Positions 51,758-55,953 of a stretch of DNA of 64,000 bases are shown here, in pieces. Origin of the DNA: Acidobacteriota bacterium (GTDB lineage: Bacteria > Acidobacteriota > Terriglobia > Acidiferrales > UBA7541); assembly GCA_003225315.1 (NCBI GenBank), contig QHZD01000041.1, positions 1 to 64,000 of the forward strand, written 5' to 3'. A program made the position numbers and the translations under genes. The notes beneath the pieces were generated by a model. It searched no databases. It was not told the DNA's origin and saw only the letters and a program-made list of their open reading frames with translations. Position 1 is the stretch's first letter. The number at the start of each line of letters is the position of its first letter.

Positions 51758-51865
51758 CTTATCAGTAATCCACCTCACTAACTCTCTGGTTACGCACCAC
51801 GCTGGATTTCTTGCCCGGTTTCCTTGCGGCTGCTAACGTGAAAATAGCAGATTCTGGCCAACTTG

Positions 51866-54352
51866 ATGCTTAACGAAATCCTAGCGCCCAGCCCGACCGA
51901 GCAGGCCCGGCCTGAACTCAAGAGCTACAACGTCACGATTCCCATGGAGTCGTTGGCGATTGGCGTCGATAACATTCACCACGACGTTTTCTTGAGCCCG
52001 AAATTCGTTCAAACCGCCCGCGACTATCTTTTCGACGTGATTCGCCAGAACACCAGCAATACTTATCTTTCAGGGATCGAACTGCGCGCTTCACGATCGC
52101 CGGATCATGCCGGGTTTCGCAAGCTGCTCTCCGAAGTGCTGCAAAGCTCTTTAACCCAGGCCAAGTATCACAAAAATATAGAGATAGACCTGCTCTTCCG
52201 TTTGGGCTTGCTCAAATTCCTGACCTTCGAGATCGGCAATCAGTTTGCCAACTTGATCCTCGAAGGCAAGGAATGGATTCGCAAGCGCGGCGAGCATTTC
52301 GAGCGCAGCCAGCAGGCGCACGTCATCAAAGCACGTTTGTCGGAGCTGCAGTCCGCCAGGAGGAGCGTCGTTCGCCGAGTGAGCCAGCAGGTGGCGCAGA
52401 TTGTGATCGACGTGGAAGACAACGTCATCGCAAAAACCCGCCGGGCTCTCTTTGGCGAAGATTTCGCTCCTTATTACGAGCTTTGCAAGAACCGGCTGAT
52501 TTTTCTTGACGGCGGCAAAGACGACTTTTTTTTTCTGGAGCATTACATCCTGCTGGGCAACTATGCGCGCGACCCCGACCGCTTCGAAGCCATGGATGAG
52601 CTTTTCCAAGAATTTCTCCGCGAAGCCGGCGTCACCTTTAGCCACGACCCAGCCCACACGGAAGCCATCCAGGCTCATACCGGGCTGCTGGAAGCCGTGC
52701 AGGCAATCCAATCTGAAATCGCTAATATCGAGGAGCAGCGGGAAAACATCCGCAAGCGTCTGGAACGCAACGATGGTTTCTTCAGTAAATTCCTGAATTC
52801 CGGCGACCCCGCTGACCTGAAAGCATCCCTAAACGATTTGGACGCCCGGCTCAAGCACCAGGAATGCAAGCTGGAAGAGTTGGGGCCACAGATTGACGGC
52901 GCCAGGCAGAAACTGGATTTCTTCGTGAAGGATCATGCTGGGAGGCTCGGTGAATACTTGAACGAACCGGAAAACGCCAAGCGCCTGTTTGACGTGAGCT
53001 CCGCCGGAGAGGAGCAGGCGCCGGTGCGCGCACGCTTGCTCTCTCAGCTCCTCGATCGCCTCGAACTCCAAGAAGTGCTCTACCACATTCTGGCAAGCTA
53101 CGAAATCCAACCAATCGCTTCGGATTACTGCCCGCCCGTGCACTTGCAGCAGCTCCGCAAGGCCCTCGTATCGAAAGAGGAGCTGAAGCAAGTTGAACAG
53201 GTCATCAAGCATGTGCCTGCAAAGAAATTATCGCTCAAGGCCATCGAGGAACTGTCCAGGAAAATACGCCGCTATTCCCGCGAGGAAAAACTGGCTTTCG
53301 TTTTGCGGTTTGCCGGCGACTTCCTGCGTCTGCGAAGGGATCTGCGCGACGCGGAACATCTGACCACCTGCATGGAGCGCATCAACCTGGTAACCACGGA
53401 GAAGGCCCGCGAACTCTCCCGTCTGAACAACCGGTTGTACGAGTGCGTGCTTCCAGAAGAAGCCCGGCCGGACCAGGATCAGGTGATCTCGCACGTGATC
53501 ATCAAGTCGGACGTGCGCGGCTCCACGCGCATGACTCATGACTTACTCTCGCGCGGGCTCAACCCCGCTTCCCATTTCAGCCTGAACTTGCACGAGCCGG
53601 TCAGGAAACTTCTGGACCGCTATTCGGCGAAGAAAGTATTCATCGAGGGTGACGCCATCATTCTCGCCATTTTCGAAACGGAGTCGACCGTAGCCTATGC
53701 ACGGCCGGTCGCCAAGGCGTGCATCCTTTCGCGCCAGATTCTCGCCGTGTGCAATTCGTACAACGAACGCGCATCGGACAGCAATCTTCCCTCGCTCGAA
53801 CTCGGCCTAGGAGTCGCTTTCCAGGGTTCCGCGCCCACGTACTGGACGGACGGCGATTCGCGCATCATGATTTCGAAGGCGCTTAATCTTTCCGACCGCC
53901 TCTCCGGCTGCGCCAAGCTAGCGAAACGCATGCTTGCCGGACAAAAAAGCCATTTTTCCATTTTTCAGTTTCTAAACACCATGGAAGGCGCATCTGCGGA
54001 AGAGTTGGACGAATTCCTGGTCCGCTACAACCACAACGGCATCGAGCTCAACGAGGAAGGGTTTCAAAAACTTTCCGAGGAAATTTCGCTCGACACCATT
54101 GAAACGAAGCTCGATATGCCCTGGGGCAAGCAAAACGTCACTTTGTTTTATGGAGAAGTGCCGCTCGGCGAGTCCGTGGAACTGCTTGTCTTACGCAAGG
54201 CCTTCGCGCGGCAATTGCTTCCTGACGGAAAAGTCGGCGGAGCAACTTCGCATCCCTACTATGAAGTTTGCACTGCTCCTGCGCTGTACGATCTCGTCGC
54301 TGCTTTGATTCGCACGCAGCAAGCTGCCACGCTCACTTCCCAGCGCGCCTGA
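51866..54352 (+). CDS. Large cytoplasmic protein with divergent class III nucleotidyl cyclase-like domain
   Basis: An 828-residue protein I do not recognise overall. No signal peptide or membrane helix. Residues 1-250 are mixed helical; about 265-350 form a coiled coil (QSEIANIEEQRENIRKRLER, LKHQECKLEELGPQIDGARQ). Residues about 540-700 look like a class III cyclase homology domain: VIIKSDVRGSTRMTHDLLSR (first metal Asp about 549), KVFIEGDAIILAIFE (second acidic pair about 595) and LGLGVAFQGSAP..DSRIMISKALNLSDRLSG (typical gxxVNxAxRL region). The usual Lys/Asp substrate-selecting residues are not obvious, so catalysis is uncertain. A C-terminal 130 residues follow. ATG 51866 is used; TTG 51863 directly precedes it. 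The stop lies seven bases before the tRNA-Sec promoter. Confidence 0.75.
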   Translation: MLNEILAPSPTEQARPELKSYNVTIPMESLAIGVDNIHHDVFLSPKFVQTARDYLFDVIRQNTSNTYLSGIELRASRSPDHAGFRKLLSEVLQSSLTQAKYHKNIEIDLLFRLGLLKFLTFEIGNQFANLILEGKEWIRKRGEHFERSQQAHVIKARLSELQSARRSVVRRVSQQVAQIVIDVEDNVIAKTRRALFGEDFAPYYELCKNRLIFLDGGKDDFFFLEHYILLGNYARDPDRFEAMDELFQEFLREAGVTFSHDPAHTEAIQAHTGLLEAVQAIQSEIANIEEQRENIRKRLERNDGFFSKFLNSGDPADLKASLNDLDARLKHQECKLEELGPQIDGARQKLDFFVKDHAGRLGEYLNEPENAKRLFDVSSAGEEQAPVRARLLSQLLDRLELQEVLYHILASYEIQPIASDYCPPVHLQQLRKALVSKEELKQVEQVIKHVPAKKLSLKAIEELSRKIRRYSREEKLAFVLRFAGDFLRLRRDLRDAEHLTTCMERINLVTTEKARELSRLNNRLYECVLPEEARPDQDQVISHVIIKSDVRGSTRMTHDLLSRGLNPASHFSLNLHEPVRKLLDRYSAKKVFIEGDAIILAIFETESTVAYARPVAKACILSRQILAVCNSYNERASDSNLPSLELGLGVAFQGSAPTYWTDGDSRIMISKALNLSDRLSGCAKLAKRMLAGQKSHFSIFQFLNTMEGASAEELDEFLVRYNHNGIELNEEGFQKLSEEISLDTIETKLDMPWGKQNVTLFYGEVPLGESVELLVLRKAFARQLLPDGKVGGATSHPYYEVCTAPALYDLVAALIRTQQAATLTSQRA

Positions 54353-54358
54353 CGTTCC

Positions 54359-54387
54359 TTGAGAGTCTGCAGACCGCTCACTATACT
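54359..54387 (+). promoter_or_regulatory. Promoter of the selenocysteine tRNA gene
   Basis: TTGAGA (54359-54364), 17 bases, TATACT (54382-54387). Transcription would start six or seven bases on, that is at or just before the first base of the tRNA (54394), as usual for independently transcribed tRNA genes. Confidence 0.75.
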
Positions 54388-54393
54388 GTTCGC

Positions 54394-54492
54394 GGAGGCG
54401 AAAAACGTCCGGTGACGTTCCCGGCCTTCAAAGCCGGCGATTCGGTCCTTCGCGGGTCGAATGGTGGGTTCGACTCCCACACGCTTCCGCCA
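54394..54492 (+). tRNA. selC: tRNA-Sec (anticodon UCA)
   Basis: A 99-nt cloverleaf. Acceptor GGAGGCG pairs with CGCTTCC (one G-T), discriminator G and encoded CCA (54490-54492). The D-stem is six base pairs, AACGTC/GACGTT, with the short loop CGGT, a hallmark of selenocysteine tRNA. Anticodon arm CCGGC-CTTCAAA-GCCGG puts TCA at 54428-54430. The variable arm is long (ATTCGGTCC/GGGTCGAAT with a TTCGC loop), and the T-arm is GTGGG-TTCGACT-CCCAC. The eighth acceptor pair is A-A, a small irregularity. It decodes UGA with SelB and a SECIS; selA, selB and selD are not in the window. Confidence 0.93.
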
Positions 54493-54687
54493 GACCCAGA
54501 CTGCATGAGTATTGTTTGTGCGGTGGCTGGCGATGCTATCTGCGCGGCCGAAAAAGGGTCGAGTGAAACGAGGTTTACCCTTTAGAACGTCTAATCCCTG
54601 ACTTGAATCAGGTGTACCAGTGGCTTGGTTGGCCCAGCCGATTGTCATCCCTGTTCGAGAAGGCAAATAAAGGAATGTGGTATTGAG

Positions 54688-55953
54688 ATGATGTTTGGCA
54701 GCGGGACCGTGGGCAAACAAATCCTCTTACTCTTAATTGTTGGGATTTCGCTAACCCTCAGCGCGGGAAGTGCAGTGATTCAAGCTGGCCAGCCGCAATC
54801 GGGGCAACAACCCTCCGCGCAAGCTTCTTCCGCCGCTCGGCCCGTGGGAACGATCAAGTCGATTTCCGGGAATACCATAATTTTGACCACTGATGCAGGC
54901 AGCGACATGACGGTTCAAGTTCAAGACTCCGCAAAGCTCGTTCGCATCGCGCCCGGCCAGAAAGACTTGAAGGATGCCACTCCCATCCAGTTGGGGGACC
55001 TTCAGCCGGGCGATCGCATTCTTGTGCGCGGCAAACTTGCTGATGACGGTAGATCCGTGGCTGCCGCGTCGGTCATCGCCATGAAGAAGGTGGACATCGC
55101 GGACAAACAGTCCCGCGAGCGGGAGGAATGGCAGCGGCACGGCTTCGGAGGGCTGGTCAACAACGTCGATGCGGGGGGCAATACCATCAACGTTTCGCTG
55201 CCTTCTCCGGGCGAAAAGAAGACAGTAGCCATCCACTTCTCGAAGGACACCATACTGCGCCGGTATGCGTCGGACTCGGTGAAATTTGATGACGCGAAGC
55301 CTGCTCCTCTCGATCAGATCAAACCGGGCGACCAGCTTCGCGCCCGCGGCACGCGCAGTGCCGATGGCGCCGAATTTACCGCCGATGAAATCGTCTCCGG
55401 CACGTTTCGAAATATCGCCGGCATCATTTCGGCGCTCGATGCATCCGCAGGCACCGTCACCGTGCAGGACCTTGCCCTGAAGAAATCTGTCACCGTGAAA
55501 GTCACGGCCGACTCACAGTTGCGTAAACTGCCCCCGCCCATGGCACAGCGGATCGCGGCGCGTCTGAAAGGAACTCCCGTCGAAGCACCGTCGACAGCTA
55601 CAACTGCGGGTGGAGCCAGCTCGGCCGCGAACTCCGAACCGTCAACGAAACCGAATGGCCCGCCTTCCGTGGGATCTGGGTCCGGAGGGATGGGAAGGTC
55701 CGGAGGAGGAGGCTCCGCCGATTTGCAGCAGGCGATCAGCCGCATGCCAGCCGCCACACTGGCGGACTTGCAGAAGGGCGACGCCGTCATGGTCGTGGCC
55801 ACCGAGGGAGGAGCGAACGGCGTTGCCACGGTAATCACTCTGCTTGGCGGAGTGGAACCTATTCTGGAGGCTTCTCCCAAGAGCAGCGCGTCAACAATCC
55901 TTTCGCCATGGAGCCTAGGCACTGGGGCCGGCGGGGAAGCGGCCACGCCGTAA
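54688..55953 (+). CDS. Exported protein with three DUF5666-like domains
   Basis: A 421-residue protein: signal peptide (about 1-30, ILLLLIVGISLTLSAGSAV), then three similar beta domains of about 75 residues, each containing a GTIKSISGNTIILTTDAG / GGLVNNVDAGGNTINVSLP / IAGIISALDASAGTVTVQDL entry strand and a PGDRILVRG / PGDQLRARG type strand, matching DUF5666. A Gly/Ser-rich segment (VGSGSGGMGRSGGGGS) precedes a last helix-strand unit (ADLQKGDAVMVVATEGG). Function unknown. It sits 44 bases ahead of a TonB-type receptor whose tail is also Gly-rich, so co-expression is likely. Confidence 0.8.
   Translation: MMFGSGTVGKQILLLLIVGISLTLSAGSAVIQAGQPQSGQQPSAQASSAARPVGTIKSISGNTIILTTDAGSDMTVQVQDSAKLVRIAPGQKDLKDATPIQLGDLQPGDRILVRGKLADDGRSVAAASVIAMKKVDIADKQSREREEWQRHGFGGLVNNVDAGGNTINVSLPSPGEKKTVAIHFSKDTILRRYASDSVKFDDAKPAPLDQIKPGDQLRARGTRSADGAEFTADEIVSGTFRNIAGIISALDASAGTVTVQDLALKKSVTVKVTADSQLRKLPPPMAQRIAARLKGTPVEAPSTATTAGGASSAANSEPSTKPNGPPSVGSGSGGMGRSGGGGSADLQQAISRMPAATLADLQKGDAVMVVATEGGANGVATVITLLGGVEPILEASPKSSASTILSPWSLGTGAGGEAATP

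Follow-up and report, generated by a model that had tools for sequence, protein, structure and literature searches.

A tRNA-Sec gene with its own promoter in an acidobacterium that carries selA, selB, selD and genes with UGA at catalytic positions

The closest described relatives of the gene reported here are the bacterial tRNA-Sec genes (Rfam family RF01852), exemplified by selC of Escherichia coli. With them it shares a TCA anticodon, a six-pair D-stem with a 4-nt D-loop, a long variable arm, the 8+5 helix length, G73 and an encoded CCA. The six-pair D-stem with its 4-nt loop is the element recognized by SelA (PMC7609411). Our gene departs from E. coli selC in that pair 8 is A-A rather than C-G, leaving seven standard acceptor pairs plus a mismatch, in that 49:65 is G-C rather than G-U, and in being unlinked to selA, selB and selD. 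Allo-tRNAs likewise have a long variable arm, as does the tRNA described here. They have been reported from Acidobacteria among other groups and have a 12-bp acceptor domain built as 8/4 or 9/3 (PMC7609411), which our tRNA does not. With only seven standard acceptor pairs, the gene also resembles the 7/5 (12-bp) tRNA-Sec species, in which a nucleotide is missing or a bulge is present (PMC5330540), but it keeps eight nucleotides on both strands and 13 layers. Because the 7/5 forms are shorter or bulged, we regard our tRNA as distinct from them.

The window (the whole 64,000-nucleotide stretch of DNA that was analyzed) contains a single tRNA, which ARAGORN identifies as tRNA-Sec with anticodon TCA. 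The gene (selC; 54394–54492, forward strand) is 99 nt long including the encoded CCA. Rfam RF01852 agrees, covering 54394–54488 at full model length with 69.1 bits, well over the gathering score of 47 (E = 5.1e-12). A sequence-only reading of this DNA had proposed a tRNA-Sec with a TCA anticodon, a six-pair D-stem with a small loop, a nine-pair variable arm and CCA, and every one of these elements is as described. According to the ARAGORN cloverleaf and an RNA fold, the 5′ strand of the acceptor stem (54394–54400) forms seven standard pairs with 54482–54488. In the cloverleaf it is followed by an unpaired eighth position, an A at 54401 whose partner at 54481 is also A, and the acceptor/T helix thus has 8+5 nt per strand, or 13 layers, with A-A at layer 8. 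After two linker bases (cloverleaf and direct reading) comes the D-arm (54404–54419), six pairs of AACGTC/GACGTT (54404–54409/54414–54419) around the 4-nt loop CGGT. The anticodon arm (54421–54437; ARAGORN) has a five-pair stem and the loop CTTCAAA, with the anticodon at 54428–54430. The variable arm (54440–54462) has nine pairs including two G-U (54440–54448/54454–54462), and the T-arm (54464–54480) has five pairs, GTGGG/CCCAC, and the loop TTCGACT; these two arms, like the D-arm, were assigned by direct reading and ARAGORN. The discriminator G73 (54489) and the encoded CCA (54490–54492), read directly, are kept in nearly all relatives. All of these elements lie on the forward strand, and an unconstrained RNA fold yields the same cloverleaf except for details of the variable arm (−42.3 kcal/mol, z = −1.85). 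The gene is thus a genuine, intact tRNA-Sec and a typical member of an established family. A search of the genome with RF01852 found it to be the sole real tRNA-Sec. Two further matches were considered as extra copies and rejected: one above the cut-off, on contig C29 (49.6 bits), is a tRNA-Trp, and the next, at 46 bits, is a tRNA-Ser.

The source genome, that of an acidobacterium of the Candidatus Acidiferrales group, is a 4.98-Mb draft in 57 contigs that is 97.6% complete. It also encodes the selenocysteine machinery, the absence of which, like a covariance score below threshold, had been named as refuting the reading; neither holds. All three genes score above their curated cut-offs: selA on contig C18 (567 bits versus 268), selB on C42 (364 versus 242) and selD on C46 (349 versus 125). 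Since selA, selB, selD and the tRNA-Sec gene each lie on a different contig, linkage contributes no support.

We then looked for selenoprotein genes by family, namely SelD, the formate dehydrogenase alpha subunit, AhpC/TSA and thioredoxin. The selD gene has one in-frame TGA, in the context VKAAG-U-AAKLSP, at what we take to be the known Sec/Cys site of the SelD family. An FdnG-type formate dehydrogenase gene on contig C9 has a TGA in ENQARV-U-HGPTVSSLGPTFGRGAMTN; the two other loci for this subunit in the genome have no internal stop. In three AhpC/TSA peroxiredoxin genes the sole internal stop is a TGA at the peroxidatic cysteine (STPG-U-TIE, FTGG-U-TKQ and FTGG-U-TKQ), and substituting cysteine for it gives full-length proteins in all three cases. 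Because the search was limited to four families, this list of at least five genes is a minimum. The occurrence of UGA at an active-site position in five genes means that chance or sequencing error is not the explanation.

To look for SECIS elements, 52 nt from each UGA were folded and compared with shuffles. The selD gene has a strong SECIS-like hairpin after the UGA (−27.2 kcal/mol versus a shuffle mean of −15.4, s.d. 2.7). That of fdnG is recognizable but only about 1.2 s.d. below its shuffles (−18.8 versus −15.1, s.d. 3.0); in its loop, positions 23 and 24 (with the U of UGA as 1) are G and U, which presumably corresponds to the G23-U24 that SelB binds in the SECIS of E. coli fdhF. In the three peroxiredoxin genes the hairpins that follow the UGA are weak and unconvincing alone. 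Of the SECIS-bearing UGA genes that the sequence-only reading had suggested seeking, formate dehydrogenase and SelD were found. The thioredoxin-family matches in the genome lack an internal stop. Taken together, the tRNA-Sec, selA/selB/selD, the catalytic-site UGAs and the selD and fdnG hairpins give good support, at the level of sequence, to the reading of UGA as selenocysteine in the source acidobacterium, which had been put forward as probable and to which the five genes with UGA at a catalytic residue now lend weight. In these uncultured soil acidobacteria UGA very probably means selenocysteine. In that case at least five of their genes, selD and formate dehydrogenase among them, will be cut short by automatic annotation, and the earlier caution about genes apparently truncated at UGA was justified.

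Could the tRNA instead be a plain opal suppressor, or a relative of tRNA-Ser with a TCA anticodon, unrelated to selenocysteine? Its long variable arm is shared with tRNA-Ser, and true tRNA-Ser genes of the genome also score, just below the cut-off, on the Sec model. But a tRNA of that kind would not be expected to have the six-pair D-stem with a 4-nt loop, the 13-layer helix and G73, nor to be accompanied by a complete SelA/SelB/SelD set and UGA-containing selenogenes, and the best tRNA-Ser match reaches 46 bits against 69 for the tRNA-Sec. We consider this alternative very improbable.

Turning to transcription, a −35 box, TTGAGA (54359–54364), and a −10 box, TATACT (54382–54387), lie on the forward strand just upstream of the tRNA. 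The combination TTGAGA-17-TATACT (54359–54387) has no other match in the window and none in 100 shuffles, and the interval 53900–55000 contains one promoter-like site only (shuffles give 0.6). Consensus scans are weak alone, and it is the conservation of the −10 position in relatives that makes the promoter solid. The −10 box ends 6 nt before tRNA base 1, and in the host's family 39 of the 65 distinct upstream regions have a −10-like hexamer with precisely this spacing, against a shuffle mean of 0.36. Base −1 is C or T in 64 of the 65, and a TTG at a spacing of 16–18, as for the −35 box found by consensus scan, is present in 24. (In a DNA alignment one row, L077, was misplaced and was ignored.) With the −10 box at 6 nt, transcription would by canonical promoter numbering begin at tRNA base 1. 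The promoter that had been called from sequence alone therefore holds up; the start at the first tRNA base, argued from the conserved 6-nt spacing, is only probable. Leaderless synthesis is likely to be characteristic of the tRNA-Sec gene in the host's family; in the remaining phylum the spacing between the −10 box and tRNA-Sec is not fixed.

The usual route for most bacterial tRNAs is different: a leader is transcribed and trimmed by RNase P, in which case the −10 spacing here would be incidental. The sister family f2 of the same order, in which the −10 box lies about 12 nt upstream of tRNA-Sec, fits such a route. Against it stand the fixed position in the host's family and the 47 other tRNAs of the source genome, of which 15 have a comparable −10 box, none at 6 nt and most 8–22 nt away. 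A trimmed leader is therefore the less likely reading, although one to be taken seriously, and it bears on the leaderless part of our account only; we favor a start at base 1. We note that a tRNA-Met gene of the source genome (L241), whose −10 box (TATAGT) is only 5 nt upstream of base 1, is a second possible leaderless tRNA. A search for a terminator downstream of tRNA-Sec found none. The gene directly upstream of the promoter (51863–54352) encodes an 829-residue protein with no Pfam match at E 0.001, and the gene downstream of the tRNA (54694–55953) encodes a DUF5666 protein, one stretch of which weakly resembles CusF.

The A-A at pair 8 had been described as a small departure of this gene from the 8/5 rule. 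The mismatch is real, but it runs through the lineage and is frequent in the phylum. The comparison covered 71 tRNA-Sec genes of ordinary type from the order and 89 from other parts of the phylum; four low-scoring or odd loci that did not parse (L139, L142, L143 and L206) were left out of the pair counts, and for L142 and L143 ARAGORN rejected a tRNA-Sec identity. Layer 8 lacks a standard pair in 67 of the 71 and in 55 of the 89, mostly together with a Watson-Crick pair at 49:65 where E. coli has G-U, and it is A-A in 52 of the genes of the order, the source gene included. The host's family has mostly A-A or C-A and a few C-U; the sister family f2 has a U-A pair. Outside the order, genes with a layer-8 mismatch have a Watson-Crick pair at 49:65 in 46 of 55 cases, whereas those with a standard layer 8 have G-U there in 25 of 34. 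The association between 8:66 and 49:65 is significant over genes (Fisher p = 9e-8) and when each taxonomic family is counted once per state (p = 4e-5), with descent not fully corrected for in either value.

In E. coli the antideterminants against EF-Tu are C7:G66, G49:U65 and C50:G64, according to PMC11231383 (citing Rudinger 1996) and PMC6267555. The source tRNA-Sec does not match this type, having A-A at the last acceptor pair and G-C at 49:65. Its A-A/G-C junction may nonetheless work like the E. coli antideterminant, and the irregularity at that site seems to have been moved by one pair. We infer from the gene comparisons that an irregularity in the junction helix is a selected trait, which many acidobacteria would place at layer 8 and not at 49:65. 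More tentatively, and in our view less likely than not, a layer-8 mismatch (A-A, C-A, C-U and others) could replace the 49:65 G-U as the anti-EF-Tu signal in Acidobacteriota, in combination with a leaderless, RNase P-free tRNA in the host's family. A literature search that did not reach most subscription papers found neither a report of the acidobacterial pair-8 variant nor a bacterial leaderless tRNA-Sec, which is not proof of novelty. The exchange between an 8:66 mismatch and a 49:65 G-U supplies naturally occurring variants with which to examine how tRNA-Sec escapes EF-Tu, a matter relevant to engineering selenoprotein production, and the fixed promoter spacing suggests a straightforward way to test whether a bacterium makes a tRNA without a leader. 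The added interest of the locus is comparative, lying in the apparently moved irregularity and the fixed spacing.

The non-standard acceptor pair might also be taken as a sign of decay, the gene being a degenerate copy or pseudogene of tRNA-Sec. The genome has no other real tRNA-Sec, however, and both the pair-8 mismatch and the promoter are conserved across the family; we give decay hardly any credence. Rather, we are highly confident of the account as a whole: a functional selC with its own promoter, serving a SelA/SelD/SelB route to UGA-encoded selenoproteins. The tRNA, the machinery genes, the catalytic-site UGAs, the two hairpins and the conserved promoter position are all features of the genomes themselves; the start of transcription, charging, conversion and decoding are modeled on the E. 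coli pathway. RNA polymerase would be directed by the gene's own sigma-70-type promoter and would probably begin at tRNA base 1, and serine would be charged onto a tRNA-Sec that keeps the 13-layer length of the acceptor/T helix, with the layer-8 mismatch common to most relatives. SelA would convert Ser-tRNA to Sec-tRNA with selenophosphate from SelD, itself a predicted selenoprotein, and SelB would bring Sec-tRNA to UGA codons that precede a SECIS hairpin. The products with selenocysteine would include at least formate dehydrogenase, SelD and the three peroxiredoxins.

Finally, tRNA-Sec is widespread in these bacteria: RF01852 finds it in 73 of the 95 genomes from the order and in 178 of a sample of 297 from across the phylum. 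The nearest named records retrieved with an exact degenerate pattern of the tRNA are without exception metagenome assemblies of acidobacteria, and several carry the label Candidatus Acidiferrales or gp2. In three genomes from other genera of the same family (L272 in G071, L273 in G086 and L274 in G091), the usual tRNA-Sec is replaced by a divergent TCA-anticodon tRNA of 97 nt with, according to ARAGORN, a shorter acceptor stem and a short D-stem with a large loop. This tRNA adjoins a complete, linked selD-selA-selB cluster, in which SelA has an additional stretch near model position 160 and selD has cysteine in both genomes in which its start was read; the whole has the look of a selenocysteine cassette that was acquired separately. 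Two tRNA-Sec genes occur together in two other genomes: G015 carries a tandem pair (L115, 594 bases) 259 bp apart with the same stems and promoter, and G033 has two differing copies 3.6 kb apart.
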